A DNA stretch of 37,117 nucleotides from contig JAJRPO010000029.1 in assembly GCA_024280735.1 (NCBI GenBank), forward strand, positions 1 through 37,117, given 5' to 3'. The notes beneath the pieces were generated by a model. That model was not told where the DNA came from. It ran no database searches and worked only from the letters and a program-made list of their open reading frames with translations. This DNA comes from Alphaproteobacteria bacterium. GTDB taxonomy: Bacteria > Pseudomonadota > Alphaproteobacteria > Rhodobacterales > Rhodobacteraceae. A program made the translations under genes and the position numbers. Positions 12,462-33,486 of this stretch are shown one piece after another; position 1 is the stretch's first letter, and each line of letters begins with the position of its first letter.

Positions 12462-14927
12462 CTACTGACCTGTCGGTGTTAGGGTTGTGATGCCGACGGC
12501 ACCGCCGCGCGCCAGTTCCGGATCCAACGACATCAAGATATATTCGCCGCGCCGCCACAGGCCGGACATATCGTCATAGTGGCGCGATAAGAAGTGGCCG
12601 GACTGGCCGGTGGCGATGATATAGACCGAGCTGTCCAAATCCGAGAAATCAATCACGGCGCGGAACCCTGCGGCGTGGACATTGGCATAGGGTGTATCGC
12701 CGGTGCCGCTGGTGCGGGCGCGTTGCAAGGTATGATCACCCCCCGATGTGTCTTGGCGGATGTTGGTAAACCAGGCGAGCAGTGGAATTTTGCCCAGCAC
12801 CTCGTGGTCCTGTTGTGATTGATGCGCTTGCCCCCAGCGCCAACTGTCGATGCGGGGGCCGTATTTTTCGGTCAATTCCAGAATAGCCTGATCAAGCGCG
12901 ATGCGGGCGACGTCTTCGCAGGCCTCCACGCGGGTGGATTGGCGGATGTCACACCAAACGGCCGCGCCTTTGACGTTGCGAAATACCCGTTCGATGAAAA
13001 CCGGATCAGCGCGGGGAAAATGGCCGATCAGCGGGCCAAGTTCGTCCTCGGCCAGTTTGCGCTGTAGATTGCGCAGCCACGCCGCATAGATCAACGGTTC
13101 GGGGATATGATGGCTCATCTCGCCGTTCCAATTGGCCAGCATTTCCAAGGCAATCTGGCGCTGGCGGGCAGGGGTGCCTGCGGGGGCAGGATCGCCGGTG
13201 AACCACAGCTCCTTGGCAATCAGCGGCAACAGGGTGCGCGCGGCGATGGAAACCGGGTCAAGCTGCGCCTCGATGAAACTGTCACGGGTGTGGACCTCGC
13301 GGTCGTTCAACAGGCGGGTCAAGCGGTTGATGCGTTGGGTGTCACCCCAGTCAAAACCGATGTGATGCGGGAAAGGTTTGTCGGTGGTTTTGTTGTTGGT
13401 ATTTGCAACAATACCGCTGGCCGGATCACGCACAAACGGGTTGGTTTCAAAATCGAAATAGCCGTCCCAACGGTTTTCTGCAACCCAGCCTTGCGACGGG
13501 ATGCGGCCCTGACTGGCGTGTGCGGGATTACGTTTCGGGTTCTTGCCAGCCACTTGCAACATGACCCCTTGGCGATCCGCCAGCGTGACATTCTGCGAGG
13601 GCGCTTTGGAAAATACCAGTGCGGCGCGGGCGGCAGATATTGTTTTGGAGCGCATCAGGTTGATTGCAGCGGTCATTGATTGGTCGTTTTCATCAAGGGC
13701 TGTCCAGGCGATGCTGGTGACATGGCCAGGCGGGGTGATTGAGCCAAGGTCATATTGCGCGCCCGGAATGACCGGGCCATTATCCGTCCAGCGTAGCAAA
13801 TGCGTTTGCGGCGGGGCGTCTTTGACGCGGATGACGACTGATTTGCTGCGGAAAGATTTGAACCCGTCCGGGGTGCGGTATTGCGTCGGGTCATCGGGGT
13901 TTAGTTGTTCGATATAGACATCTAGATCGTCGAGGTAAGAACTGGTTAACCCCCAACCAAGTGCATCGCTGCGCCCCAGTAAAACGGCGGGAATGCCAGG
14001 GATTGTTGCGCCAATCACCCCACCATCGGGGAATTCCATACGGGCGAGCATCCAGATGCCAGGGGCTGTCAGGCCAAGGTGGGGGTCGGTTGCCAACAGA
14101 GGCGCGCCGGATGCGGAGCGGCTGCCATTTGCGGCCCATGCGTTAGAGGCACCGGCCAGCCCAAGGGGTTTTAGCGGGTCGAGGGGGTGTTGTTGCACCT
14201 GCGCGAATTGGCGTTGCTTTGGCAGGGTCGGGAACAACGTAGCGAAGTCTTTGAGCGCGGTGATCGCTTGGCCGGGTGCGTCTGGCAGGATGTCTTGCAG
14301 ACGTTCGGCGGGGATGGTTAGGGAGAGTTGCGCGCGCAGTACCTCGTTTTTTAGGCTGCTGGACAATTGCAAGGCCATCAGGCGCAGAATGGACAGGCTG
14401 TCGGTCGGGGTCCAGGGTTCTATTTGCGGTGGGAACAGAAAAAACTCCGGTGCGCCGCGTCCCAGCGCGTCTTTTTGAACAATGCGCAGCCATGAATTCA
14501 CCCCGTCGGAATAGGATTTCAAGGCCTGTTTGGTTTCCTCGGTTTGATATTGAAACGAGGCATGGGAAAGTTCCACCAGATCGAGGCGGCGGATGAAATC
14601 GTCGATCTTCAGGGTGCTTTCGCCGAATATTTCGGACAGGCGTCCTTGGGCGGTGCGGCGCAGCATGGTCATTTGCCACAGGCGATCTTGGGCGTGGGTG
14701 AAGCCAAGGCCAAAATAGGCATCCGTGGCCGAGGTTGGGAAAATATGCGGTACATTATTGGTATCGCGCACAATTTCGATCGGCCCGCCGAGGCCCTCTA
14801 TTTCATAGGTGGCATCATAATCGGGGATCGATTGTGTGGCGAAATAATAGGCGAGCAGTAACATAGCCAGTGCAAGCACACTCAGCCCGACAAACCCCCG
14901 CAACAACCACCGGAAAACCTCTACCAT
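12462..14927 (-). CDS. penicillin-acylase-family (Ntn) amidohydrolase
   Basis: An 821-residue secreted or membrane-tethered amidase. An N-terminal hydrophobic stretch (about residues 9-30) acts as signal or anchor. The alpha-chain part contains GGPIEIVRDTNNVPHIF and THAQDRLWQM. The autocatalytic site is GA|SNAWAANGSRSASG, making Ser261 the expected N-terminal nucleophile after cleavage; the LLATDPHLG and NTNNKT segments also fit the family. Homologues cleave acyl side chains from beta-lactams or acyl-homoserine lactones; the substrate here is unknown. ATG 14927 is chosen because AAAGAGG lies just upstream. A start at 15023 would run past the divergent gene's ATG. Confidence 0.9.
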   Translation of the reverse strand: MVEVFRWLLRGFVGLSVLALAMLLLAYYFATQSIPDYDATYEIEGLGGPIEIVRDTNNVPHIFPTSATDAYFGLGFTHAQDRLWQMTMLRRTAQGRLSEIFGESTLKIDDFIRRLDLVELSHASFQYQTEETKQALKSYSDGVNSWLRIVQKDALGRGAPEFFLFPPQIEPWTPTDSLSILRLMALQLSSSLKNEVLRAQLSLTIPAERLQDILPDAPGQAITALKDFATLFPTLPKQRQFAQVQQHPLDPLKPLGLAGASNAWAANGSRSASGAPLLATDPHLGLTAPGIWMLARMEFPDGGVIGATIPGIPAVLLGRSDALGWGLTSSYLDDLDVYIEQLNPDDPTQYRTPDGFKSFRSKSVVIRVKDAPPQTHLLRWTDNGPVIPGAQYDLGSITPPGHVTSIAWTALDENDQSMTAAINLMRSKTISAARAALVFSKAPSQNVTLADRQGVMLQVAGKNPKRNPAHASQGRIPSQGWVAENRWDGYFDFETNPFVRDPASGIVANTNNKTTDKPFPHHIGFDWGDTQRINRLTRLLNDREVHTRDSFIEAQLDPVSIAARTLLPLIAKELWFTGDPAPAGTPARQRQIALEMLANWNGEMSHHIPEPLIYAAWLRNLQRKLAEDELGPLIGHFPRADPVFIERVFRNVKGAAVWCDIRQSTRVEACEDVARIALDQAILELTEKYGPRIDSWRWGQAHQSQQDHEVLGKIPLLAWFTNIRQDTSGGDHTLQRARTSGTGDTPYANVHAAGFRAVIDFSDLDSSVYIIATGQSGHFLSRHYDDMSGLWRRGEYILMSLDPELARGGAVGITTLTPTGQ

Positions 14928-17997: not shown

Positions 17998-18807
17998 CTA
18001 ATCTGGATTAGCCGACAACGACCCAAGAATTGGTAGCATTAGATTGAACAGCTCTGCCTGCGATGAAATCTTACATTTTCGGTATAGTTGCTTGCGAAAC
18101 ACCTTAACCGTCTGGGAACTGATCCCCAAATTCAATCCGATAGAGACCGAAGAATGACCCTGTAAAACAAGCATGGCGACCTCTGCTTGCCTCGGGCTAA
18201 GCGAAATTCCGTGTGCTTGTTTGGTGGTCTCAATCAAATTGGAAACAAACCCGCCCTTTGTCGTTTCACCTTTGGGTATTATGTCTTTCCAGTGGCCAGA
18301 GGTTAACGCACTAACCAGGGGTGACAACCGGTGAGCAACAGCCAACTCTCGAATTGTGAAGCGTTTGTTGGAATTGCTATCGCGCCCAAGGCATACATGT
18401 AGCGAGATCCCCTGTGCCGGGTAGGAGACAAAGGCAAATTCATCCACCATTGTTGTGTTGCCATAATACTCGATAAAGTATTGGTTTCTGTGAAATTTAT
18501 CCGGTGCAATGTCACTAAGGCGGTAAACTCCGGTCGGGACATTTTTCAGATGAAGATCATGAAACGGATCCAACAAATACGCTCCGGCGAGATAAATTTG
18601 GCTTATATTCTCATGTACCTTGGGTTGGCGGTTTTCAAACATCAACGAGACTGGCGGCTGGTTCTGAAAATAGGCCAGAATAGTAATATTGTCATAGGAT
18701 AGTCGGGACCGCAGCCACGCGCTTAAACTGTTTGGAAAATCATTGGTATTCAGATGGTCAATTGCTGCTGCCAGCAAGTTTTCTTCCGAACGGGCAGAAT
18801 CCGGCAT
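17998..18807 (-). CDS. LuxR-family transcriptional regulator
   Basis: A 269-residue regulator. The last 65 or so residues form a LuxR/GerE helix-turn-helix: LSPRQAEVAMLVLQGHSSVSIGLNLGISSQTVKVFRKQLYRKC. The N-terminal ~190 residues match no receiver or obvious autoinducer domain (key AHL-binding tryptophans are not evident) and may sense a small ligand. A strong AAGGAGG lies upstream of ATG 18807. It is divergent from the potA-led operon with 98 bases between, so it is the likely regulator of polyamine uptake and catabolism (inference). An inverted repeat lies directly upstream. Confidence 0.88.
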   Translation of the reverse strand: MPDSARSEENLLAAAIDHLNTNDFPNSLSAWLRSRLSYDNITILAYFQNQPPVSLMFENRQPKVHENISQIYLAGAYLLDPFHDLHLKNVPTGVYRLSDIAPDKFHRNQYFIEYYGNTTMVDEFAFVSYPAQGISLHVCLGRDSNSNKRFTIRELAVAHRLSPLVSALTSGHWKDIIPKGETTKGGFVSNLIETTKQAHGISLSPRQAEVAMLVLQGHSSVSIGLNLGISSQTVKVFRKQLYRKCKISSQAELFNLMLPILGSLSANPD

Positions 18808-18905: not shown

Positions 18906-19973
18906 ATGACTGAAATTGCCATCGACATACAAGATATGACCAAGCGTTATGGGGATTTCGTTGCGCTAAAGAATGTATCACTCAGCATCATGGACAACGA
19001 ATTCTTCACTTTGCTGGGGCCGTCGGGTTGTGGCAAGACCACGTTGCTGCGCACCATTGCAGGGTTTGAGGATATTTCAGAGGGGGCAATCAAGCTGTAT
19101 GGCGAAGACATTGCCGATTTGCCCCCCAACAAGCGGCCGGTGAATACTGTATTTCAGCAATACGCCTTGTTTCCGCACATGGATGTGACCGCGAATGTGA
19201 TGTTTGGCCTGTTACAATTGGGACAGGATCAAACCACCGCGCGCAACCGCGCTAATGAGGTGCTTGAAATGGTGCAGTTAACGCAGTTTTCGGATCGGTT
19301 GCCCTCGCAATTGTCAGGCGGGCAGCAACAGCGGGTGGCGCTGGCGCGTGCCTTGGCACCCAAGCCCAAGGTTTTGCTGTTGGATGAACCCCTGTCAGCG
19401 CTGGATCTGAAATTGCGCCAAGCGGTGCGCCGGGAATTGCAGCAAATACAACAGGAAACCGGCATTACCTTTGTCTTTGTGACCCATGATCAAGAAGAAG
19501 CCTTGACGATGTCAGACCGGATAGCGGTGATCGCTGATGGTCATGTGCAGCAGGTTGGCACAGCGCGCGAAATTTACGAGGCCCCGCAAAACAAGTTTGT
19601 GGCCGATTTCATTGGTGAAACCAATCTGATTGATGTGTCGGTTAGCGCTGTATCCGGAGACAGCGCGACCTGCATATTACCGGGCGGCGCGCGCTTTACC
19701 TGCCCTGCTGCCGTGGGCGCGCTTATGGGGCAGGGCCATCTTTCGGTGCGTCCCTAGCGGATTGCGCTGGTCGATCCCGCAGACGGGTTGGTTCAAGGTC
19801 ACGCCATGCGACAGACCTATTTGGGCACGGATATGCACGTTGAAATCAAACTGGCTGACGGCGAGACTGTAACCGTTCGCCTGCAAAATTCCGAAAACAC
19901 GCATATTCCCAAAGCTGGTGAGGCTGTGGGCCTTGATTTTGAGACAGGTGCCGCGCGCCTGCTGGTGGACTAG
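18906..19973 (+). pseudogene. potA: polyamine ABC transporter ATPase PotA, interrupted by in-frame TAG
   Basis: The frame encodes a 355-codon PotA-type ATPase, but codon 284 (19755-19757) is TAG. Before it lie Walker [10 protein letters not shown] (38-46), signature [14 protein letters not shown], Walker [13 protein letters not shown] and the H-loop [10 protein letters not shown]. After it, in the same frame, come RIALVDPADG and the second half of the TOBE-type domain, ending LLVD at 19973. The motif SVRP-stop-RI suggests an original GAG (RPERI). A 283-residue product keeps the ATPase core, so transport may survive, weakened or misregulated; sequencing error is also possible. Four bases upstream of ATG 18906 there is no strong ribosome site. 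The stop abuts the potB ATG. Confidence 0.85.
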
Positions 19974-20894
19974 ATGGCGGGTCTCATCAAGCAAAGCACA
20001 TCAAACACCAGCACATACGCCGGTCTAGGGCCGCTGCTGATGTTGCCGTCCTGGTTGGTTGTCGGGTTTTTTCTGGTGCTGCCGGTCAGCATGATGCTGG
20101 TCTATTCCTTCCTGACCAAAGAATTTCGTGGCGGCGTGATCTGGGAGTTTTCGCTTGCCGCATACGATCAATTCTTCTTTGACCGGGGGTTGTTTGGCGA
20201 CGCGCCGCCAGTGATTGAATGGACCTATATAACGATCTTCTGGCGCTCGATCTGGCAGGCGGCGCTGGCCACTGTTTTCTGTTTGCTGATCGGCTTTCCC
20301 ACCGCATGGTTTATTGCCACCCGCACCGGGCCGAACAAATCTATCTGGCTTTTCCTGATCACTATTCCCTATTGGGTGAACCTGCTGATCCGCACAATTT
20401 CGATGAAATTCCTGATCCGCGACACCGGACCGCTGAATGAATTCCTGATGTGGACAGGGATGATTTCGGATCCCATCCACATGATAAACACCAATTTCGC
20501 GGTGCAACTAGGGTTGTTCTATTCCTATCTACCGTTCATGGTGCTGCCGATTTACGCCAGTGTTGAACGCTATAATTTCACCTTTTCCGAGGCAGCCGCC
20601 GACCTGTATGCCAGCCGTTGGGTCACTTTGACCAAGGTCATCCTGCCATTTGTCAAACCGGGCATTATTGCCGGTTGCATCTTGGTATTTGTGCCCTCAC
20701 TCGGGGCGTTTCTAGCGCCTGATCTATTAGGCGGGGCCAAGAATTTCATGATCGGTTCACTGATTGAGGAACAGTTCAAGGGCAATGCCGGTAACTGGCC
20801 GTTTGGTGCGGCTGTATCCATGATCTTGCTGTCGATGGTGTTGGTGGTGCTGACATATTACGCCCGCCAGCAAAGCAAAGTGGAGGCACGCTAA
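19974..20894 (+). CDS. potB: polyamine ABC transporter permease, PotB-like
   Basis: A 306-residue inner-membrane permease with about six helices, beginning [26 protein letters not shown]. The coupling (EAA) loop [32 protein letters not shown] contacts the ATPase. With the PotC-like protein it forms the membrane channel of a spermidine/putrescine-type importer. It starts immediately after the potA-frame stop and overlaps the next gene by one base (TAATG). Confidence 0.9.
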
Positions 20895-21703
20895 TGGCTC
20901 GTAAACTTGATATTCGTCGGTTCCCGGGCTTTTTGCCGATAACTTATCTTTGTCTGTTCCTGCTTTATGCACCGTTGATCATTGTGATGGTCTATTCTTT
21001 TAACGACAGCAATTCGATCACCAATTGGGGCGGCCTCTCGTTGCGTTGGTACGCGGAAGTTTTTACCGGTGTGGAATCGGCAAAATTCAAGGCGGCGACG
21101 ATAAATTCCATGACCATAGCGGTGATGGCGGCGATCACATCCACCACAATTGCAACGCTGGCGGCCACTGCGATGCTAAAGGCCGGCAGGTTTCGCGGCA
21201 AAGCAATCAGCTTTGCCCTGATAAACATGCCGTTGATGGTGCCGGAAATCGTCACCGCTGTGGCCACGCTGATCTTCTTTTCCGCGATTGGTTTTACCAG
21301 CGGCTACCTGACCATTTTGCTGGCCCATATCGTGTTTTGCATCCCCTTTGCCTACCTGCCAATTGCCGCCCGAATGCAGGGCATCGAGGATACCTATGAA
21401 CAGGCGGCGCTGGATCTTTATGCAACCCGCTTTCAGGCTTTTCGCCTGATCCTGCTGCCGCTGATGACGCCGGGCATTATATCGGGCTTTCTGCTGTCAT
21501 TCATCATATCCCTCGATGATTTTATCATCACAAATTTCGTCAAGGGCGCTGGCATCGAAACCCTGCCAACGGCGATTTTCGGGTCTGTCAAGCAAGGCAT
21601 CAAACCGAACATAATGGCGATTTCGACCCTGCTGCTGCTGGTGTCGGTGATCTTTGTAACCCTGTCCTATCTGGTCGGACGGATGGGGCAGAATAAAAAA
21701 TGA
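20894..21703 (+). CDS. potC: polyamine ABC transporter permease, PotC-like
   Basis: A 269-residue permease with six predicted helices ([19 protein letters not shown] at the N-terminus). The EAA loop is [31 protein letters not shown], followed by [17 protein letters not shown], typical of PotC/PotI. It pairs with PotB in the inner membrane. It is coupled to potB by a TAATG overlap and is followed by potD. Confidence 0.9.
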
Positions 21704-21729
21704 CGACCAATCCAACAAAGGAGACGACA

Positions 21730-22764
21730 ATGAGAAAACTATTAACACTGGGGGTTTCGGCCCTGGCGCTGACCATCGGGGCAAGCACCGCAAACGCCGA
21801 AGGCAAGCTGTCGATTTATCACTGGTTTGAATACATCCCGCAAGAGTTGCTGAATAAATTCGCGGCTGAAAACGACATAGAAGTGACCATGGACACGTTT
21901 GATTCAAACGAATCCATGCTGGCCGCACTAAAAGCAGGCAAACTGGGCAGCTACGATGTTTCTGTGCCCGGCGATTATATGGTCAAAATCATGGCAGGGG
22001 CGGGTCTGCTCGACACGTTCGAGCCTGCGGAGTTGAGCAATTTTGGCAATATTTCCGCCCAGTGGATGGACGTAGATTTTGACAATGGCCGCCACAGCTC
22101 CATTCCCTATCAATGGGGTTCCACCAGCTTTTCCGTGAACCGTGATGTTTACAGTGGTGACATCCAGACTACCGCCATTCTGTTTGATCCCCCCGCAGAA
22201 CTGCGCGGCAAAATCAACGTGCTTGACAGCCAAGGCGAGGTTTTGGCAATGGCCTCGATGCATTTGGGCATCCCGCAATGCACATCCGATCGTGGCCAAC
22301 TGCGTGCTCTCAATGATCTGCTGCAATCGGCCAAACCGCATTGGGCTTCCTTTGGCTCTGACATTGCCAAAGATGTGCTTGTTTCTGGTGACGCGGCGGC
22401 TGGCATGATCTGGAACGGTTTTTCCGCCAAGGCCCGCGCCGAGGGGGCAAATGTTGAATATGCCTTCCCAAAACAAGGCTACGTTGTGTGGATGGATAAT
22501 GTCGTGCTGTTGAAAGACGCGCCAAACCGCGACAACGCGCTGAAGTTCATGAACTTCCTGCTTGATCCAGTGAATGCCGCGGTGGTGACCAACTACGCGC
22601 AATACACCGCTGGCGTTGACGGCGTTGACGGGTTTCTTGACGAAGCCGTGACCAGCGCACCAGAACTGAACCCGCCCGCCGGGGGTGCCGGTCAGTTCAT
22701 CATGGCCTGCTCCGAGGAAGTTCAGACCGTTTATGATAAAATCTGGACTGACCTGAAAAAATAG
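21730..22764 (+). CDS. potD: polyamine ABC transporter periplasmic binding protein, PotD/PotF-like
   Basis: A 344-residue solute-binding protein. MRKLLTLGVSALALTIGASTANAEG is a clear signal peptide, cleaved near ANA-EG. The mature protein starts LSIYHWFEYIPQELLNKF, with polyamine-binding landmarks W/Y-x-Y-I-P, TFDSNESMLAALKAG, YDVSVPGDYMV and IPYQWGSTSF. It delivers putrescine- or spermidine-like ligands to PotBC. ATG 21730, with AAAGGAGACG just upstream, is preferred to the ATG at 21700, which would add ten polar residues before the signal peptide. A 9-bp hairpin follows the stop. Confidence 0.92.
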   Translation: MRKLLTLGVSALALTIGASTANAEGKLSIYHWFEYIPQELLNKFAAENDIEVTMDTFDSNESMLAALKAGKLGSYDVSVPGDYMVKIMAGAGLLDTFEPAELSNFGNISAQWMDVDFDNGRHSSIPYQWGSTSFSVNRDVYSGDIQTTAILFDPPAELRGKINVLDSQGEVLAMASMHLGIPQCTSDRGQLRALNDLLQSAKPHWASFGSDIAKDVLVSGDAAAGMIWNGFSAKARAEGANVEYAFPKQGYVVWMDNVVLLKDAPNRDNALKFMNFLLDPVNAAVVTNYAQYTAGVDGVDGFLDEAVTSAPELNPPAGGAGQFIMACSEEVQTVYDKIWTDLKK

Positions 22765-22771
22765 CAATTTT

Positions 22772-22794
22772 CAGCCCCGCATGGTGCGGGGCTG
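22772..22794 (+). terminator. intercistronic hairpin after potD
   Basis: CAGCCCCGC (22772-22780) pairs perfectly with GCGGGGCTG (22786-22794) around ATGGT. No T-run follows, so it is more likely a partial terminator or an mRNA 3'-end stabiliser. Such a hairpin would keep binding-protein mRNA abundant relative to the downstream catabolic genes. Confidence 0.65.
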
Positions 22795-22861
22795 CCTGAA
22801 GTTTACCAACTGCTGCCAACCACAGGCGGCAGGCCTGAAAACCATCCCTAAGGACCGCACA

Positions 22862-24226
22862 ATGACCCACCTCAGCACCGATGATATTCTGAAAAAAGAC
22901 GACCACCTGATCCAGTCATTTGCTGATCTGGACGGTTTAAAACAACAAGGTGCGCGCACCGCGATTGTGGCTGCCAAAGGGGCCTATGTGACCGATAGCA
23001 ACGGCAATGAGCTGATCGACGGTATTGGTGGTTTATGGTGCGTGAATGTCGGCCATGGGCGCCATGAAATTATTGACGCGATCACCAAGCAGCTGGAAAC
23101 GCTGGATTATTATTCGACATTTTACAATTTCACCCATCCGGCAGCGGCGCAATTGGCCGAAAAACTGGCGCGCCTTGCGCCGGGCAATTTGAACCGCGTA
23201 TATTTCGGCAACTCTGGTTCTGTCGCCAACGACACCGCCATTCGCATGTTGCACCATTATAACAACCGTCTTGGCCGCCCGAATAAGAAGAAAATCCTGT
23301 CGCGGGTCGGAGCCTATCACGGCTCGACACACCTGGCGATGGCAATGACCACACCCGCCTATAGCGAGGGCTGGGACACGGCCGCTGAAGGGTTGGTTCA
23401 CCACCTGCGATCACCCTACGCCTACCGCGAATCCGGTGATATGACCGAAGCTGAGTTCCTTGAGGCACTGGCTGACGACATGCTGACCTCTATCCATAAT
23501 ATCGGGGCCGAAAATATCGCCGCCTTCATCGCCGAGCCTATCATGGGCGCGGGCGGCGTGTTGGTTGCCCCCGACGGGTATCATCAACGGATGCGCCAAA
23601 TAACCACCGATCACGATATAAAATACATTGCCGACGAGGTGGTTACCGCTTTTGGCCGCTTGGGCCATATGTTTGCCTCACAGGATGTATTTGGCATGGT
23701 ACCGGACATCATCAACACCGCCAAAGGCCTGACCTCGGGCTATCAACCGTTGTCGGCGACCATCATTTCTGACGAAATTTACGAAGTGATTTCCGAACCC
23801 GGCGCGATGTTCCTGCATGGCATGACCTATTCGGGCCATCCGGCAGCAGCGGCGGCGGCCTTGGCGAATATCGACATTCTGGAGCGTGATCAGATCCCGC
23901 AAAAGGTGCGCGTGACCGGAAAAGTGTTTGAAAATGCGCTGCGCGGTCTGGCCGACCTCGATATCGTGGGTGAAGTCCGTGGCAGCCATTTCATGATGGG
24001 AATTGAATTTGTGAAGAACAAGGATACCAAAGAACCCTATAGCGATGAAACCAATGTCGGTTTGCGGATTGCAGAAGAAGCCCAGAGGCGCGGCTTGATC
24101 GCCCGTCCGTTGGGTAACATCCTGATCCTGTCGCCAACTCTGATTATGGATGAAACCCAGATTGGACAAATCGAAGGTATCCTGCGCGACAGCATCAAGG
24201 CTGTCACTTCGACACTTCCGGCATAG
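22862..24226 (+). CDS. class III aminotransferase (putrescine/omega-amine type)
   Basis: A 454-residue PLP enzyme likely moving the terminal amino group of a polyamine or omega-amino compound to pyruvate or another oxo acid. Visible: YSTFYNFTHPAAAQLAEKLA, FGNSGSVANDTA (116-126), AYHGSTHLAM (151-160), FIAEPIMGAGG, ADEVVTAFGRLG with the PLP aspartate D258, and K288 in NTAKGLTSGYQPL. The usual GSEAN glutamate is Val at 121, as in some relatives with Thr there. ATG 22862 is used; the longer frame from 22781 starts inside the hairpin. An ALDH follows ten bases later, giving an amine-to-acid pair. Confidence 0.88.
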   Translation: MTHLSTDDILKKDDHLIQSFADLDGLKQQGARTAIVAAKGAYVTDSNGNELIDGIGGLWCVNVGHGRHEIIDAITKQLETLDYYSTFYNFTHPAAAQLAEKLARLAPGNLNRVYFGNSGSVANDTAIRMLHHYNNRLGRPNKKKILSRVGAYHGSTHLAMAMTTPAYSEGWDTAAEGLVHHLRSPYAYRESGDMTEAEFLEALADDMLTSIHNIGAENIAAFIAEPIMGAGGVLVAPDGYHQRMRQITTDHDIKYIADEVVTAFGRLGHMFASQDVFGMVPDIINTAKGLTSGYQPLSATIISDEIYEVISEPGAMFLHGMTYSGHPAAAAAALANIDILERDQIPQKVRVTGKVFENALRGLADLDIVGEVRGSHFMMGIEFVKNKDTKEPYSDETNVGLRIAEEAQRRGLIARPLGNILILSPTLIMDETQIGQIEGILRDSIKAVTSTLPA

Positions 24227-24235
24227 GGGAAAACA

Positions 24236-25723
24236 ATGACCGACCTGTCTTACAAAGATTGGAAATCCAAAGCCGCCGCCTTGAAATTCCGCAATCAGTG
24301 TTTCATCTCGGGCACATTTTGCGATGCCATTTCTGGTGCCAAGTTTGAAACCTTAAACCCTGCAACGGGCGCGGTTTTGACTGCCGTGGCGCGGGGCAAT
24401 GGCGATGATATTGACCGGGCGGTGAAATCTGCGCGCAGTGCCTTTGACAGCGGTGTGTGGTCCGGCAAAACCCCGTCAGAGCGCAAAGAAGTTCTGTTGA
24501 AACTCGCCGCCTTAATCCGCGATAACATCCCTGAATTCGCTCTGCTGGACACCCTGGATATGGGCAAGCTGATCAAAGACAGTTCTACCGTTGACGCGCC
24601 CGGCTCTGCCCATTTCTTTCAGTGGCACGCCGAGGCGATCGATAAGTTGTATGACGAAATCGCGCCAACAGGCGGGCGTGACATCGCCATGATCCGCCGT
24701 GTTCCGCTGGGCGTCGTCGGGGCGGTGGTGCCGTGGAATTTCCCGCTAGATATGGCAACATGGAAACTGGCACCAGCACTGGCAACGGGTAATTCCGTGG
24801 TCTTGAAACCCGCTGAGCAATCGCCGCTTTCCGCGTTGTTTCTGGCTGAACTGGCGGTTGAGGCCGGCCTGCCGGACGGGGTGCTGAATGTGGTTCCAGG
24901 ATATGGTCAAGATGCGGGGCAAGCCTTGGGTCGCCACGATGATGTTGATTGTCTGGTGTTCACAGGCTCTACCGCCGTGGGCAAACTGTTCCAGCGTTAT
25001 GCGGGCGAAAGCAACATGAAACAGGTCTGGCTGGAAACCGGCGGCAAAAGCCCCAACATCATTTTCCCTGACGCTGATCTGGATGCCGCCGCCGATATGG
25101 CCGCTTTCGGGATTTTCTTTAATCAAGGCGAAGTATGCTCTGCCAATTCGCGCCTGCTGGTCCATGCCTCGATAAAGGATGAAATGCTAGAGCGGATGAA
25201 AACCCGCGCCGAGGCAATTACCCCCGGTGATCCACTGGATCCGGCATCGACGCTTGGCGCGATGGTGGATAAATCCCACACCGACACGGTAATGCAGTTT
25301 ATCGAAAGCGGCAGGCAATCCAGCCGTCTGATTACGGGCGGTGAACGTGTGACCCTGAACGGTTCAGACGCATTTGTGACCCCGACGATATTTGACAACG
25401 TGGAAAGCAATCACAAAATAGCCCGCGATGAAATTTTTGGCCCCGTGTTGGCGGTGCAGACGTTCAATTCCGACGATGAAGCAATCGCCATGGCCAATGA
25501 CACGGTTTACGGTCTGGCGGCCTCGGTCTGGACCAAAGATCTGTCCCGCGCCCTTGGGGTTTCGGACGCGTTGAATGCGGGCACGGTGTCGGTCAACACA
25601 GTCGACGCGCTCAGTGCGATGACGCCGTTTGGCGGGATGAAGCAATCGGGCTATGGGCGCGATTTATCAATCCACGCATTTGACAAATACACCGCCTTGA
25701 AAACTACCTGGATACGATATTAA
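24236..25723 (+). CDS. aldehyde dehydrogenase (PuuC-like)
   Basis: A 495-residue NAD(P)-dependent aldehyde dehydrogenase. PWNFP (N168), the LETGGKSPN general base E267, the catalytic C301 in NQGEVCSANSR, and EIFGPVL are all in place. PuuC-type enzymes oxidise gamma-aminobutyraldehyde or its glutamyl form to the acid, which fits an aldehyde made by the preceding aminotransferase. GGGGAAAAC precedes ATG 24236. Substrate choice is inferred from context. Confidence 0.92.
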   Translation: MTDLSYKDWKSKAAALKFRNQCFISGTFCDAISGAKFETLNPATGAVLTAVARGNGDDIDRAVKSARSAFDSGVWSGKTPSERKEVLLKLAALIRDNIPEFALLDTLDMGKLIKDSSTVDAPGSAHFFQWHAEAIDKLYDEIAPTGGRDIAMIRRVPLGVVGAVVPWNFPLDMATWKLAPALATGNSVVLKPAEQSPLSALFLAELAVEAGLPDGVLNVVPGYGQDAGQALGRHDDVDCLVFTGSTAVGKLFQRYAGESNMKQVWLETGGKSPNIIFPDADLDAAADMAAFGIFFNQGEVCSANSRLLVHASIKDEMLERMKTRAEAITPGDPLDPASTLGAMVDKSHTDTVMQFIESGRQSSRLITGGERVTLNGSDAFVTPTIFDNVESNHKIARDEIFGPVLAVQTFNSDDEAIAMANDTVYGLAASVWTKDLSRALGVSDALNAGTVSVNTVDALSAMTPFGGMKQSGYGRDLSIHAFDKYTALKTTWIRY

Positions 25724-25770
25724 CGTGCTAAGCTGACGTTGGCCAAGGCCAAGCCAGCATAAACCAATGA

Positions 25771-27054
25771 ATGGAACACCATATGGCACCTGAAAAAATA
25801 GACACCCTGATTGTTGGCGCAGGCCAAGCTGGCATTGCCATGAGCGAACATCTGACCCTGAACGGTGTATCACACCTCGTTTTGGAACGCAGCCGGATTG
25901 CTGAGCGCTGGCGCTCGGAAAGGTGGGACTCGCTGGTTGCCAATGGCCCCGCATGGCATGATCGTTTTCCAAATAGGGAGTTTTCTGGCGTGGACCCCGA
26001 TGCTTTTGTTGGCAAGGAAGAAGTTGCCGATTATCTCGTGGCTTACGCCAAGCAAAACAATGCCCCCATTCGAACCGGCATTGAGGTGAAATCTGTCCGT
26101 AGAAACGAGGCGCGCGCGGGCTTTCAAATTGAAACATCAGATGGCACGTTTGAGGCCAACAATGTGGTCGCGGCCACTGGTGCATTCCAGCGTGCGGTCA
26201 TCCCTGCGGTTGCCCCAAAAGATCCGAATATCACGCAAATCCATTCCAGCGGCTATCGCAATCCGGATCAGTTACCGGAGGGGGGCGTTCTGGTAATCGG
26301 GGCGGGATCATCGGGTGTGCAGATAGCCGATGAAATCGCGGCCTCAGGCAAAAAGGTTTACCTGTCCGTCGGTTCACACGACCGCCCCTTTCGCAGTTAT
26401 CGCGGGCGAGATTTTGTTTGGTGGCTCGGGGTTCTCGGCATGTGGGATGACGAGGCACTGGAGCCCGGCAAAGAGCATGTCACCATCGCGGTAAGTGGTG
26501 CGCACGGCGGCCACACGGTGGATTTTCGCAAATTGGCGGCGCAAGGGATCACGCTGGTTGGGCTTACGGATTCTTTCAAAGATGGCAAGGTAAAGTTCCA
26601 GCCGAACCTTGTGGAAAACATTGCGCTCGGAGATGCCAGCCTATTGTCCATGATGGACGCTGCCGATGCTTATGCGGCCCGCATGGGGCTTGATCTACCG
26701 CTGGAACCGAGCGCCCGCGATGTGCTGCCCGACCCGGATTGTATGACCAACCCCGTGCTTGAACTGGACATGACTAAAGCTGGCATAACCTCGATCCTAT
26801 GGGCGACAGGCTTTGCCGTGGACTATAGTTGGCTGAAGGTTGATGTGCTTGATGGCGCAGGCAAACCCGTGCATCAACGGGGTGTCACTGCCGAACCGGG
26901 GTTGTATTTTCTGGGCATGCCATGGCAATCACGGCGCGGCTCTCCTTTTATTTGGGGCGTGTGGCATGATGCCAAGCATCTGGCCGGACACATAGAGACA
27001 CAAACTAAATATCTGGCCTATCGCGGCCCCTTGGAAACCACAGTAGAGGACTGA
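25771..27054 (+). CDS. flavin-dependent monooxygenase (short FMO/YUCCA-like)
   Basis: A 427-residue two-dinucleotide-fold flavoprotein. FAD site GAGQAGIAMSEHL lies at 16-28 and NADPH site GAGSSGVQIADEI at 177-189. Between them are ERWDSLVANGPAW and ATGAFQRAVIP, and ILWATGFAVDYSWL lies near the end. Relatives N- or S-oxygenate amines or decarboxylate oxo acids using NADPH and oxygen. In this operon an amine or imine substrate is plausible but unproven. ATG 25771 has a poor ribosome site; ATG 25783 (MAPEK) is an alternative. It is followed five bases later by ridA. Confidence 0.85.
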   Translation: MEHHMAPEKIDTLIVGAGQAGIAMSEHLTLNGVSHLVLERSRIAERWRSERWDSLVANGPAWHDRFPNREFSGVDPDAFVGKEEVADYLVAYAKQNNAPIRTGIEVKSVRRNEARAGFQIETSDGTFEANNVVAATGAFQRAVIPAVAPKDPNITQIHSSGYRNPDQLPEGGVLVIGAGSSGVQIADEIAASGKKVYLSVGSHDRPFRSYRGRDFVWWLGVLGMWDDEALEPGKEHVTIAVSGAHGGHTVDFRKLAAQGITLVGLTDSFKDGKVKFQPNLVENIALGDASLLSMMDAADAYAARMGLDLPLEPSARDVLPDPDCMTNPVLELDMTKAGITSILWATGFAVDYSWLKVDVLDGAGKPVHQRGVTAEPGLYFLGMPWQSRRGSPFIWGVWHDAKHLAGHIETQTKYLAYRGPLETTVED

Positions 27055-27058
27055 ACAA

Positions 27059-27475
27059 TTGGCCCATACACGCATTCGCAAGTTCAATACCAGCGACACC
27101 TATCCCGAGCAAAACCTCGATAATGACCTGTGTCAGGCGGTGGTCACCCAAGGCGGTAAAACCGTTTATCTACGCGGCCAGTGCCCGCAAAACTTGGATG
27201 ACGCCGTCAACATCGGCAGCCATGATCCGGTGGCGCAAACCCATAAAGTAATGCAAAACATCAAGCAATTGATCGAGGAGGCCGGCGGCGACATGCAACA
27301 TCTGGTCAAGGTTGTCGTCTACATCACCGATGTGCGCCACCGCGAGGATGTCTACCGCACCATGGGCGAATACATCAAAGGGGTGTATCCGGTTTCCACA
27401 GGGTTGGTGGTGCAGGCGCTGGCACGCCCCGATTGGTTGGTTGAAATCGACGGTACGGCCGTCATACCGGAGTAA
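27059..27475 (+). CDS. RidA family enamine/imine deaminase
   Basis: A 138-residue YjgF/RidA-family protein. The conserved R123 in ALARPDWLVEIDGTAVI would bind the substrate carboxylate, with E129 nearby. RidA proteins hydrolyse reactive 2-iminoacids or enamines. Placed after an FAD monooxygenase and before DUF1028, it may clear an imine made in the pathway. The start is TTG at 27059, supported by GAGGAC seven bases upstream; no ATG lies nearby in frame. The next gene starts five bases after its stop. Confidence 0.88.
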   Translation: MAHTRIRKFNTSDTYPEQNLDNDLCQAVVTQGGKTVYLRGQCPQNLDDAVNIGSHDPVAQTHKVMQNIKQLIEEAGGDMQHLVKVVVYITDVRHREDVYRTMGEYIKGVYPVSTGLVVQALARPDWLVEIDGTAVIPE

Positions 27476-27479
27476 TACA

Positions 27480-28154
27480 ATGACATTTTCCCTTGTCGCC
27501 CGTTGCGCGCAAACCGGCATGTTTGGGGTGGCGATCGCCTCGTCCTCCCCCGCCGTTGCCGCACGCTGTTCCTATACCCGCACAGGTGTTGGAGCGGTTG
27601 CCTCGCAAAATATTACAGACCCGTCACTAGGGCCACTAACACTTGATCTGATGGGGCAGGGTCTGAGTGCAGAACAAGCAATTGCCGATATCGTTCAAAA
27701 CCAGAAGTTTACCGAATATCGTCAAGTGCTTGCGGTGGATAAGTTGGGCGGCACCGCGATCCATTCCGGCCCAAATTCACTGGGAATCTGGACACAGGCC
27801 ACGGGCGTAAACGTGGCATCGGGGGGCAATCTTTTGGCCAATGACGGGGTGCCACAGGCTATTGTTGACGGATTTCAATCGGCTTCGGGGCATATCGGCG
27901 ACCGGCTGATCGCCGCCATGCGTGCCGGTTTGGCACAGGGCGGCGAGGCTGGCCCGATCCATTCTGCCGGAATGCAAATTTGTGATCACGTGGCCTGGCC
28001 GGTTGCCGATTTGCGGTGCGACTGGACACTTGAGTGCCCGATTGAGAATATCGCAGCGGCATGGGAGATTTATCAGCCGCAACTGCAAGCCTATGTCCAG
28101 CGTGCCTTGGACCCGCGCGTCGCACCATCCTACGGTGTTCCGGGCGATGAATGA
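27480..28154 (+). CDS. DUF1028-domain protein (putative Ntn-type hydrolase)
   Basis: A 224-residue protein of the DUF1028 family. MTFSLVARC at the start exposes Thr2 as a possible N-terminal nucleophile, and GMFGVAIASSSPAVAARC, GAVASQNITDPSLGPL, GLSAEQAI and ASGGNLLAN are family-like. DUF1028 has been grouped with Ntn hydrolases; the reaction is unknown. ATG 27480 is used because the frame upstream runs through ridA. It overlaps the next frame's first ATG, so it is likely co-translated. Confidence 0.85.
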   Translation: MTFSLVARCAQTGMFGVAIASSSPAVAARCSYTRTGVGAVASQNITDPSLGPLTLDLMGQGLSAEQAIADIVQNQKFTEYRQVLAVDKLGGTAIHSGPNSLGIWTQATGVNVASGGNLLANDGVPQAIVDGFQSASGHIGDRLIAAMRAGLAQGGEAGPIHSAGMQICDHVAWPVADLRCDWTLECPIENIAAAWEIYQPQLQAYVQRALDPRVAPSYGVPGDE

Positions 28155-28165
28155 AGGGGGCGTCC

Positions 28166-29332
28166 ATGAAAACCCTTGAGATTCTTGACAAGTTAATCGC
28201 TTTTCCCACGGTCAGTGCCGACAGCAATCTGGCGATTATTGACTACGTTCAAGACTACCTGAAAACACGCGGTTTTGAAACGTACCATATTCCAGACAAT
28301 ACGGGCCTAAAAGCAGGGTTGTTTGCCCGCATTGGCCCCTCGGACAAGGCAGGTGTGATGTTGTCTGGCCATACGGATGTGGTGCCAACAACAGGGCAAA
28401 ACTGGACAACTGACCCCTTCAAGATGACCGTGAGCAACGGCAAAGCCTACGGGCGCGGTGCGACGGATATGAAGGGCTATCTGGCGTCGGTCATGGCACT
28501 GGCAGATCGGGCAAGCCATGCCAATCTGACGGAACCATTGAAAATCGCCTTCTCCTATGATGAGGAAATCGGCTGTGTCGGCATCAAATCCATGATCCAT
28601 CATGTAGAAGATACAATTGGCCTGCCGCGCTGTTGTTTTGTGGGCGAGCCAACTTTGATGCAGGTGGCAATCGGGCATAAAGGCAAGGCTGCATTGCAGG
28701 CGATATGCCATGGCATGAATGGCCATTCCGCCATGGCCCCCGATTTTTTGAATGCGCTACACTTGGCCTGCGACTTTGTAACCGTTCTGCGGGATTTACA
28801 GGGCGACTACGCGTTGAATGGAGCGCAGGACCCTGACTATGGTGTGCCGTATTCAACAATTCATGTTGGTAAAATGTCCGGTGGAATGGCGCTTAATATC
28901 ATCCCCGAAAGGGCAGTCATTGATTTTGAATTTCGCCATCTGGCCACTGATAATCCGGAATCTATTTACGCCCGTATTCTGGCTGCTTCCCGTGAGGTCT
29001 GTGTAGCACAGCAGGCGCAATTCCCCTCTGCCAAAATTGATGTGTTGCAACTGAACGCTTATCCGGCGCTTGATACGGATGTTAACGACAACATCGTGCC
29101 CCATGCCTGTAAATTGGCACAAGTATCTGATATCACTAAAGTATCCTTTGGCACCGAGGCCGGCTATTTCTCCAAGCATTTGGGTATCCCAACAATCGTA
29201 TGTGGACCAGGCTCGATGGATGCGCAAGGCCACAAACCTGATGAGTATATCGAACTTTCGCAATTGGCGGAATGCGATGCGATGCTCGAAAGGCTGCTTG
29301 GAAATATTTCAAGGCAAGTGGACGAGCGGTAA
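28166..29332 (+). CDS. ArgE/DapE-type deacylase (M20 peptidase family)
   Basis: A 388-residue zinc amidohydrolase. Metal ligands and catalytic residues are visible in LSGHTDVVP, YGRGATDMKGYL, FSYDEEIGCVG and CFVGEPTLMQVAIGHKGK. It would remove an acyl group, often acetyl, from an amino acid or amine. As argE it could be biosynthetic, but its place at the end of a polyamine catabolic operon suggests a catabolic deacylase (inference). ATG 28166 with AAGGGGG upstream is preferred to the ATG at 28151, which overlaps DUF1028. Confidence 0.87.
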   Translation: MKTLEILDKLIAFPTVSADSNLAIIDYVQDYLKTRGFETYHIPDNTGLKAGLFARIGPSDKAGVMLSGHTDVVPTTGQNWTTDPFKMTVSNGKAYGRGATDMKGYLASVMALADRASHANLTEPLKIAFSYDEEIGCVGIKSMIHHVEDTIGLPRCCFVGEPTLMQVAIGHKGKAALQAICHGMNGHSAMAPDFLNALHLACDFVTVLRDLQGDYALNGAQDPDYGVPYSTIHVGKMSGGMALNIIPERAVIDFEFRHLATDNPESIYARILAASREVCVAQQAQFPSAKIDVLQLNAYPALDTDVNDNIVPHACKLAQVSDITKVSFGTEAGYFSKHLGIPTIVCGPGSMDAQGHKPDEYIELSQLAECDAMLERLLGNISRQVDER

Positions 29333-32724: not shown

Positions 32725-33486
32725 CGGTTTTTGGCATCCGAGCAAACCGAATAGGCTAGGAAATAGTCCTCGCAATCGTTTTCCATTCGCGGACAGTTTG
32801 AGACATAAGCGCAAGTGAAGGCACCATATAAAGGATCATTTTGCCCTTGCCGCCCAATTCTCCTGCAATCTTAAAGCTGGTGAAGGTTTTTCCCGTACCA
32901 CCGGCCATAATCAGCTTGCCGCGGTCATCATGTGCCAGCCCAGCGCGAACGGCATCCAATGCCTCTTGCTGGTGTTCACGCAGGGTTTTCTTTTCTTTGA
33001 GGAAAATGCTTTTTTCGCGGAAATAAGCGGGCCAATCAAGGCGGCTTTTCTCAAGGTCCGCCAAAGCAATCCGGTGCTACTGTTTCCCCCATTTTCCAGC
33101 ATGGCTTTCAGATAGGCGCTAAAATCTTTGATCGTAGTGTCAACAATAACCAAACTGACAAAATCTTTGGTCGAGGCAGCGGAAACAAAGGAATCTATAT
33201 CCGACTTTTTGATACTATGGTCCGAGGCATAGAATTTGCATTGAATAGCGCAAAACCCTGATCCATCCGAATGGCGCGCCACAAGGTCAATTCCCGCATC
33301 GTTTGCTTTGTAACCTTGTTCTTTGGCCCAGTCTTTGAACAGCCAAACCTTGTCATAGCTTTGGCCCTGCAAAGTGTCATTTTCCAGAAATACTTTAACA
33401 AGTTTCTCGAAATATTCGCCCTTTTCAAATTCCGATTGAGATTTCAGGCGAAGAGATTGCAGAACTTTTGACAATGAATTTTGCAT
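32725..33486 (-). pseudogene. type ISP (LlaGI-like) restriction-helicase, frameshifted N-terminal relic
   Basis: The start MQNSLSKVLQSLRLKSQSEFE leads into an Mrr-type nuclease domain: GYKANDAGIDLVA and CAIQCKFY supply the D...QxK site. After codons around 33085 the frame shifts (GGGGG run) and a TAG lies at 33077-33079. It resumes as LADLEKSRLDWPAYF, then helicase motif I GGTGKTF and ILYMVPSLALMSQTVREW. A second shift in an A-run (32779-32782) restores NDCEDYFLAYSVCSDAK, after which homology stops near 32725. Intact relatives are about 1,500 residues, with ATPase and methylase parts. This copy is dead. Confidence 0.7.

Follow-up and report, generated by a model that had tools for sequence, protein, structure and literature searches.

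A predicted histamine degradation operon in a Rhodobacteraceae contig couples a hin-type core to a PotABCD-like importer

A stretch of 37,117 nucleotides from an alphaproteobacterium of the family Rhodobacteraceae (GenBank assembly GCA_024280735.1, contig JAJRPO010000029.1; hereafter the window) carries six consecutive genes for a class III aminotransferase (AT), an aldehyde dehydrogenase (ALDH), a flavin monooxygenase (FMO), a RidA-family protein, a DUF1028 protein and an M20 deacylase annotated as ArgE, placed directly downstream of a PotABCD-like importer. The operon is highly likely to import histamine and degrade it to L-aspartate. A preliminary description, made from the sequence alone, had seen in these genes a new catabolic route for polyamines. 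The genes fit instead the known hinCDFLHG pathway of Pseudomonas, histamine is the likely substrate and the polyamine link is very probably wrong. This is a known pathway in a new arrangement, in which a hin core is joined to a PotABCD-type importer, a LuxR-type regulator and a different AT. The window is contig C44 of a 2.63 Mb genome that is 71% complete.

All six enzyme genes are open reading frames on the + strand (Table 1). The AT-ALDH, ALDH-FMO, FMO-RidA, RidA-DUF1028 and DUF1028-ArgE gaps are 9, 47, 4, 4 and -4 bases respectively, so that the tight spacing described earlier, by overlap or about 5 bases at most junctions, is borne out apart from a single gap of 47 bases; 97 bases lie between potD and the AT gene. 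Pfam assigns the proteins to Aminotran_3 (295 bits), Aldedh (549 bits), Pyr_redox_3 (99 bits; FMO-like 28 bits), Ribonuc_L-PSP (73 bits), DUF1028 (199 bits) and Peptidase_M20 (119 bits). What the sequences establish is homology, gene order, co-occurrence and, through a model, a predicted fold, while activity, transport and growth are predictions.

In P. putida U and P. aeruginosa (PA5393-PA5390) the HinFLHG proteins convert imidazole-4-acetate to aspartate, HinC and HinD having first made imidazole-4-acetate from histamine, according to the review PMC8231116. In Table 3 of PMC6467879, HinF is labelled as an FAD-monooxygenase (EC 1.14.13.5), HinL as an enamine deaminase, HinH as an amidase, HinG as an amidase (EC 3.5.1.8) and HinI as an aspartate ammonia-lyase. 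The last four genes of the window operon fit this scheme gene for gene, with FMO as the putative HinF, RidA as HinL, DUF1028 as HinH and the M20 protein as HinG, four families in the same order. An ordered and co-directional FMO-RidA-DUF1028-ArgE run with nothing mapped between the genes is found in 68 of 80 loci from named genomes; for the 41 Pseudomonas loci among them the count is 34, two of P. putida included. These loci are the best 80 of 574 confirmed ones, a selection in which relatives of the Pantoea FMO are over-represented. The window proteins are 69% (FMO), 57% (RidA), 48% (DUF1028) and 42% (ArgE, over 97% of its length) identical to those of one P. putida locus, L181 (L and G numbers are our own handles for loci and genomes). 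DUF1028 is the third gene of the Pseudomonas runs and was found by Pfam in both L181 and the P. fulva locus L182. This P. fulva locus has a class III AT, an amino-acid permease, the FMO-RidA-DUF1028-M20 run, a LysR gene and an ALDH all together, as expected for a hin cluster. The window ALDH is 57-61% identical to full-length ALDHs beside hin genes at 12 Pseudomonas loci.

The Pseudomonas systems (hinABCDFLHGIJK in P. putida U; hinDAC and hinFLHG in P. aeruginosa) have the core order F-L-H-G in common and share with the window an AT, an ALDH, an FAD-monooxygenase, a Rid-family protein, an amidase and an M20-type deacylase. The window differs in having one operon in reaction order, in the absence of an aspartase from that operon, in a LuxR gene where Pseudomonas has the LysR regulator HinK and the regulators HinB/HinJ, and in an AT from a clade other than that of the HinC-type enzymes. 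What is new is thus a LuxR-PotABCD-AT module that stands where Pseudomonas has its permease, its regulators and an AT of the HinC clade. The core is conserved and fits hinFLHG. The earlier view that the genes form one pathway is supported, and it is also correct that a standard polyamine route would not need an FMO, a RidA protein, a DUF1028 protein and a deacylase.

In the classical bacterial route, imidazole-4-acetate is converted to imidazolone-acetate, then to formimino-aspartate, to formyl-aspartate and finally to aspartate and formate. In the proposed pathway PotABCD would bring in histamine, which AT would convert to imidazole-4-acetaldehyde and ALDH to imidazole-4-acetate; the order AT-ALDH-FMO-RidA-DUF1028-ArgE would then equal the order of reactions. 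In this scheme we infer the uptake of histamine, the substrate of AT and the individual reactions of RidA and DUF1028. By homology and order with HinF (EC 1.14.13.5, imidazoleacetate monooxygenase), FMO would hydroxylate the imidazole ring, and the amine N-oxygenation first suggested for it is not supported. The RidA-family protein and DUF1028 would together open the imidazolone ring with loss of one nitrogen, yielding N-formyl-L-aspartate, from which the ArgE-like protein (HinG, EC 3.5.1.8) would remove formate to leave L-aspartate. This last protein scores above the acetylornithine deacetylase cut-offs of the NCBI models PRK07522 and TIGR01892, but its context points to a formyl-aspartate deformylase. 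Residues His69, Asp71, Asp101, Glu133, Glu134, Glu161 and His356 (numbered from 28166), which we take to be the M20 catalytic and metal-binding residues, each show conservation of 97% or more across 109 sequences. As to other identities for the enzymes, the FMO scores 375 bits against the 498-bit cut-off of TIGR04046 and so is not assigned to the MSMEG_0569 (Nit1C) flavoproteins; thiamine-pyrimidine salvage (with a YlmB-like M20 protein), vitamin B6 and homarine degradation were set aside, as none of these pathways is known to have the FMO-RidA-DUF1028 set.

HinL and HinH must between them cover both middle steps of the classical route. Either HinH would open the lactam and HinL then remove ammonia from the formimino group, or HinL would hydrolyse the C=N bond to give formyl-isoasparagine, whose amide HinH would then hydrolyse. 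Gene order favours the second option but is not decisive. The preliminary description had RidA clear an imine. According to PMC4433059, imine hydrolysis by RidA needs a catalytic arginine (Arg105/Arg107), and some 10% of RidA proteins have serine at that position. The arginine of the RidA imine deaminases (RidA, Rid1-Rid3) was found in none of 147 sequences, the window protein included; the position aligns with Ser113 of the window protein and is occupied by Ser in 138, Cys in eight and Phe in one. Imine clearing by the known RidA mechanism is thus doubtful.

An AlphaFold model of the DUF1028 protein (pLDDT 93.7) has an Ntn-type fold: Foldseek matched it to PDB 2IMH (TM 0.84, rmsd 2.0) and then, weakly, to subunits of the proteasome and of Anbu (TM about 0.4, with E no better than 5e-5). 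The 2IMH protein, SPO2555 of Silicibacter pomeroyi, is itself a DUF1028 protein with the same fold as the model, but it is 25% identical to the window protein and probably belongs to another subfamily; the entry names no function. All 140 sequences compared have Thr2 and Ser4, and the invariance of Thr2 makes this residue, exposed once Met1 is removed, the probable nucleophile of a predicted catalytic site. DUF1028 proteins also exist outside hin clusters, for example beside an oligopeptide transporter in L218 (32% identity); HinH is therefore no guide to the family in its entirety. A search of a literature library for DUF1028 found no paper, and one for the gene combination found nothing of apparent relevance. 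Another Ntn-type family is represented in the window by a penicillin amidase family gene (12462-14927, - strand, 665 bits), about 3 kb from the LuxR gene. The idea that DUF1028 and ArgE hydrolyse an acylated intermediate is supported, in that two hydrolases and a formylated compound come close to the hin scheme; the suggestion that the operon is a lead to the DUF1028 reaction was right in direction, DUF1028 being the HinH counterpart. A fuller joint reading, with two new chemistries and a new importer, in which an arginine-less Rid protein (Ser113) turns imidazolone-acetate into N-formyl-isoasparagine and a Thr2-dependent DUF1028 protein deamidates this to N-formyl-aspartate, bypassing formimino-aspartate, with histamine supplied by a PotABCD-type importer under LuxR control, is tentative and, with all its parts together, rather unlikely.

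Conservation was assessed in 198 genomes of the same family, the window genome included. FMO was scored as present at 56% identity or more, which holds for 68 genomes (including G022, with the gene in two pieces); 12 more genomes with matches of only 34-42% were scored as lacking it. Both FMO and DUF1028 (E≤1e-40) were found in 66 genomes, only FMO in two, only DUF1028 in three and neither in 127, which is more than chance. From the presence of FMO, histamine or imidazole-4-acetate use is predicted for roughly one in three of the family genomes sampled (68/198). All 68 FMO loci outside the window at this identity (67 genomes, with two loci in G073) were searched for neighbours; some lie at contig ends and the counts are therefore lower bounds. 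RidA (≥60%) was found in at least 58, DUF1028 in 53, ArgE in 26, LysR in 42, PotA or PotD in 23, ALDH (≥60%) in eight, LuxR in five and AT (≥60%) in one, and RidA adjoins DUF1028 in 53. Around FMO paralogues of 34-42% identity, RidA or DUF1028 was nearby in none of the 12 loci fetched (22 places listed). The nearest DUF1028 matches on named plasmids were from Leisingera and other Rhodobacterales, at 81% identity and less. The neighbourhood that the preliminary description proposed to look for is thus conserved in its core, while the full six-gene set with AT is rare.

Separate evidence that histamine is the substrate comes from a protein of about 690 residues that recurs beside the core in the family, adjoining it in at least 26 of the 68 loci. 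Among PDB entries it matches histamine dehydrogenase 6DE6 best (1239 bits for L072 and 1259 bits for Leisingera thetidis L113), followed by histamine dehydrogenase 3K30 (834 and 849), an unnamed relative, 6L6J (659 and 669), and trimethylamine dehydrogenase (526 and 533). In these relatives the enzyme would perform the first step from histamine. Of 41 genomes with a match at E≤1e-230, the 36 with at least 65% identity were used (the G182 copy being partial), while G014, G059, G064, G038 and G168, at 53-57%, were left out; among these five, only G038 has FMO. All 36 have FMO (both 36, dehydrogenase alone 0, FMO alone 32, neither 130; Fisher p=6e-21). In the window genome, at 71% completeness, no histamine dehydrogenase was found, the best match being 30% identical, and AT appears to replace it there. 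Relatives of the AT at 70% or more were found in seven of the 198 genomes, including that of the window; all have FMO and none has a histamine dehydrogenase at the 65% level. Leaving out the window, chosen for having both AT and FMO, FMO is present in all six remaining AT genomes (p=0.0013) and histamine dehydrogenase in none (p=0.007), the pattern to be expected if the two are alternatives for the first step. Direct contact between the AT and hin genes is seen in the window, G078 (L074), G088 (L206) and Salipiger (L122); in G088 the order LuxR-PotA-B-C-D-AT runs straight into Rieske-RidA-DUF1028-ArgE. The window AT, a class III enzyme of the same Pfam family as the hin-linked AT of Pseudomonas but of a separate clade, is the likely histamine-deaminating enzyme here.

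At family level the importer, AT and ALDH resemble PotABCD uptake and SpuC/PuuC-type catabolism, but they miss the curated NCBIfam cut-offs (PuuC 629 of 850 bits, PotD 197 of 582, AT below all 25 shown) and are linked to the hin core. A new polyamine route, with FMO N-oxygenating an amine, RidA clearing the imine and DUF1028 and ArgE hydrolysing an acyl-polyamine, would account for the PotABCD-type importer and the PuuC-like ALDH; given that the core fits hinFLHG, that histamine dehydrogenase recurs beside it and that the RidA protein is without the imine-deaminase arginine, we regard that route, judged on the operon genes and their counterparts elsewhere, as hardly credible. PotD is related to the spermidine/putrescine-binding proteins in the PDB, at 181 bits at best. 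In 17 linked PotD proteins (≥60%, window included) the equivalents of E. coli PotD Trp34, Glu36, Tyr37, Glu171, Trp255 and Asp257 are kept in all, while Thr35 is replaced by Phe and Asp168 by Ser or Thr in all, and Trp229 is Tyr in 12 and Trp in five. We take Thr35 and Asp168 to be polyamine contacts in the E. coli protein. These changes would fit a smaller amine, proving nothing. Homologues of the LuxR-type protein at 45-59% identity have these Pot/AT or hin genes as neighbours in L054, L058, L059, L060, L074, L122 and L203-L206, and this protein is the probable regulator of the importer-AT module. No PotABCD-type histamine ABC importer under LuxR control appeared among the papers that the literature searches listed, most of them unrelated to the subject apart from the review PMC8231116.

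The entry side of the pathway varies by lineage: histamine dehydrogenase, AT, a GMC oxidoreductase with ALDH and an NCS1 permease (Klebsiella, Acetobacter), or Rieske oxygenases (Burkholderiaceae and some family loci). Among the 68 family loci, Rieske type A is present in at least 25 and type B in at least 10; both a Rieske gene and histamine dehydrogenase occur in four, the dehydrogenase only in 22, Rieske only in 22 and neither in 20 (p=0.0024). Rieske and histamine dehydrogenase thus tend to be mutually exclusive, suggesting that another compound enters the pathway in the Rieske type. Both Rieske types are distantly like glycine betaine monooxygenase (L064, 8031-9194, - strand; L095, 5776-6882, - strand; L112, L116 and others), and the enzyme may act as an N-demethylase on methylated imidazoles, methylimidazole acetate being one example. 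The GMC oxidoreductase and NCS1 permease lie beside the core on Klebsiella and Acetobacter plasmids (L115, 4311-7375, - strand; L114, 12411-15421) and are perhaps an entry route for histaminol (imidazole ethanol). The stretches taken from plasmid records L112 and L215 contain no annotated gene. In L. thetidis (L113, 1-6885) a second cluster, of an alpha/beta hydrolase, a flavin reductase, an LLM monooxygenase and an aldehyde dehydrogenase, lies just upstream of the hin genes, and hutU lies beyond it. These variants raise the alternative that a related imidazole compound, such as imidazole ethanol (GMC, ALDH, NCS1) or methylimidazole acetate (Rieske), is the true substrate and histamine is secondary here. 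The GMC/NCS1 genes beside the core in Klebsiella, Acetobacter and others, and the Rieske genes, which 26 of the 68 family loci have and which are less frequent in the presence of histamine dehydrogenase, agree with this; the window operon has no GMC or Rieske gene but does have an AT, which calls for a primary amine, and we consider this alternative very unlikely for the window.

Several observations weigh against a histamine operon of the hin type. The equation with Hin proteins is drawn from gene order, published labels and other Pseudomonas genomes rather than from alignment to tested Hin proteins, and HinH would be a DUF1028 protein by position, not by alignment to HinH. The co-occurrence p-values ignore relatedness. 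The strict FMO-RidA-DUF1028 run, with no other mapped gene between, is found in only 27 of the 68 family loci. When all 41 histamine-dehydrogenase-like genomes are counted, FMO is present in 37, and in this looser set G038 has AT together with two dehydrogenase copies of 53-54%, so that exclusivity is broken in one of seven genomes (p=0.04). Pseudomonas hin has the APC permease HinA where the window has an ABC importer. Aspartate ammonia-lyase, the expected exit enzyme, supports the hin reading where it neighbours the core, as it does in Streptomyces sp. SAT1 (L118) and, in two pieces, in Mycolicibacterium arabiense (L117), or is divergent from it, as in Pseudohalocynthiibacter aestuariivivens (L217); it is rare there, with none in the 68 family loci and three in 91 other loci, plus L217. 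In the window genome HinI is absent from the operon, and a 41% match elsewhere could be aspartase or fumarase. In the two Actinobacteria (L117, 10410-11582; L118, 9591-10790) the M20 protein at the HinG position is unalignable to the window or Pseudomonas ArgE, and the last enzyme has apparently been replaced. In the window itself potA is interrupted by an in-frame TAG (19755-19757), beyond which the frame continues to a stop at 19971-19973; this is either a recent nonsense change or a sequencing or assembly error in the draft genome.

The remaining contrary points concern the AT. Its clade (support 91/99) is apart from the clade of the Pseudomonas and Enterobacter hin-linked enzymes (100/100), at 35-38% identity; on these sequences it was probably recruited to the HinC step independently, and is less likely an enzyme for another amine. 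In G038, G070 and G052 the order LuxR-PotA-B-C-D-AT is kept but away from the hin core; some 2 kb separate potD from AT in G070, and in G052 a carbon-nitrogen hydrolase lies between the two. G138 has the AT with neither Pot nor LuxR and not beside the core. The AT substrate could thus differ. One may then suppose that the genes from ALDH or FMO onward form the imidazole-4-acetate pathway, and that LuxR-PotABCD-AT serves another amine such as putrescine, joined to them by chance or through shared regulation. The stand-alone modules (Pot 76-86% identical) and the resemblance of AT and PotD to polyamine enzymes and binders in the PDB speak for this, but all six other AT genomes carry FMO, the AT touches hin genes in four places, and the linked PotD proteins have Phe and Ser/Thr at the Thr35 and Asp168 positions. 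We judge this supposition improbable and prefer the histamine operon.

Around the stand-alone modules, molybdenum aldehyde oxidase-like genes follow the AT in L204 (11656-15334; G070, by Pfam) and look-alike reading frames do so in L205 (5734-9316; G052). No ALDH was matched in either fetched stretch, and these genes are a possible ALDH substitute. The carbon-nitrogen hydrolase between potD and AT in L205 (10920-11687, - strand) was identified by Pfam, and a protein resembling it, by appearance, is near FMO in four loci (for example L066, 8520-9380, - strand).

Table 1. Genes and other features of the predicted operon and its regulator, in window coordinates
Feature	Position	Strand	Basis or remark
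LuxR-type regulator, divergent from operon	17998..18807	-	GerE domain; homologues beside same Pot/AT or hin genes
PotA-like ABC ATPase	18906..19757	+	in-frame TAG splits off C-terminal part 19758-19973
PotB-like permease	19974..20894	+	profile matches
PotC-like permease	20894..21703	+	profile matches
PotD-like binding protein, predicted histamine/imidazole-amine binder	21700..22764 (start may be 21730)	+	profiles, site residues
Perfect hairpin (stem of 10 bp, loop of 3 nt) between the importer and the enzyme genes	22772..22794	+	just after potD
Class III AT, predicted histamine:pyruvate aminotransferase (HinC role, different clade)	22862..24226	+	
ALDH, predicted imidazole-4-acetaldehyde dehydrogenase (HinD role)	24236..25723	+	
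FMO, HinF counterpart, imidazole-4-acetate monooxygenase by homology	25771..27054	+	
RidA-family protein, HinL counterpart, TTG start	27059..27475	+	catalytic Arg replaced by Ser113
DUF1028 Ntn-like protein, HinH counterpart (amidase)	27480..28154	+	invariant Thr2
M20 deacylase annotated ArgE, HinG counterpart, predicted N-formyl-L-aspartate deformylase	28151..29332 (start may be 28166)	+	

The potD-AT gap (22765-22861) folds with z = -2.15 against shuffled sequences, and the hairpin within it could separate the expression of the importer from that of the enzymes; scans for promoters and terminators gave matches at chance level only. Further along the window (32756-33486, - strand), pieces of an Mrr-type restriction nuclease and a helicase lie in different frames and resemble a broken gene.

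The hin assignment would place members of DUF1028, a family still of unknown function in Pfam, in a defined pathway of four genes whose first and last compounds are known, and would likewise place a Rid subgroup without the catalytic arginine. It predicts that an ABC importer does the work of the Pseudomonas permease, and it points to likely misannotations, as polyamine importer, acetylornithine deacetylase and imine deaminase, wherever the cluster occurs.

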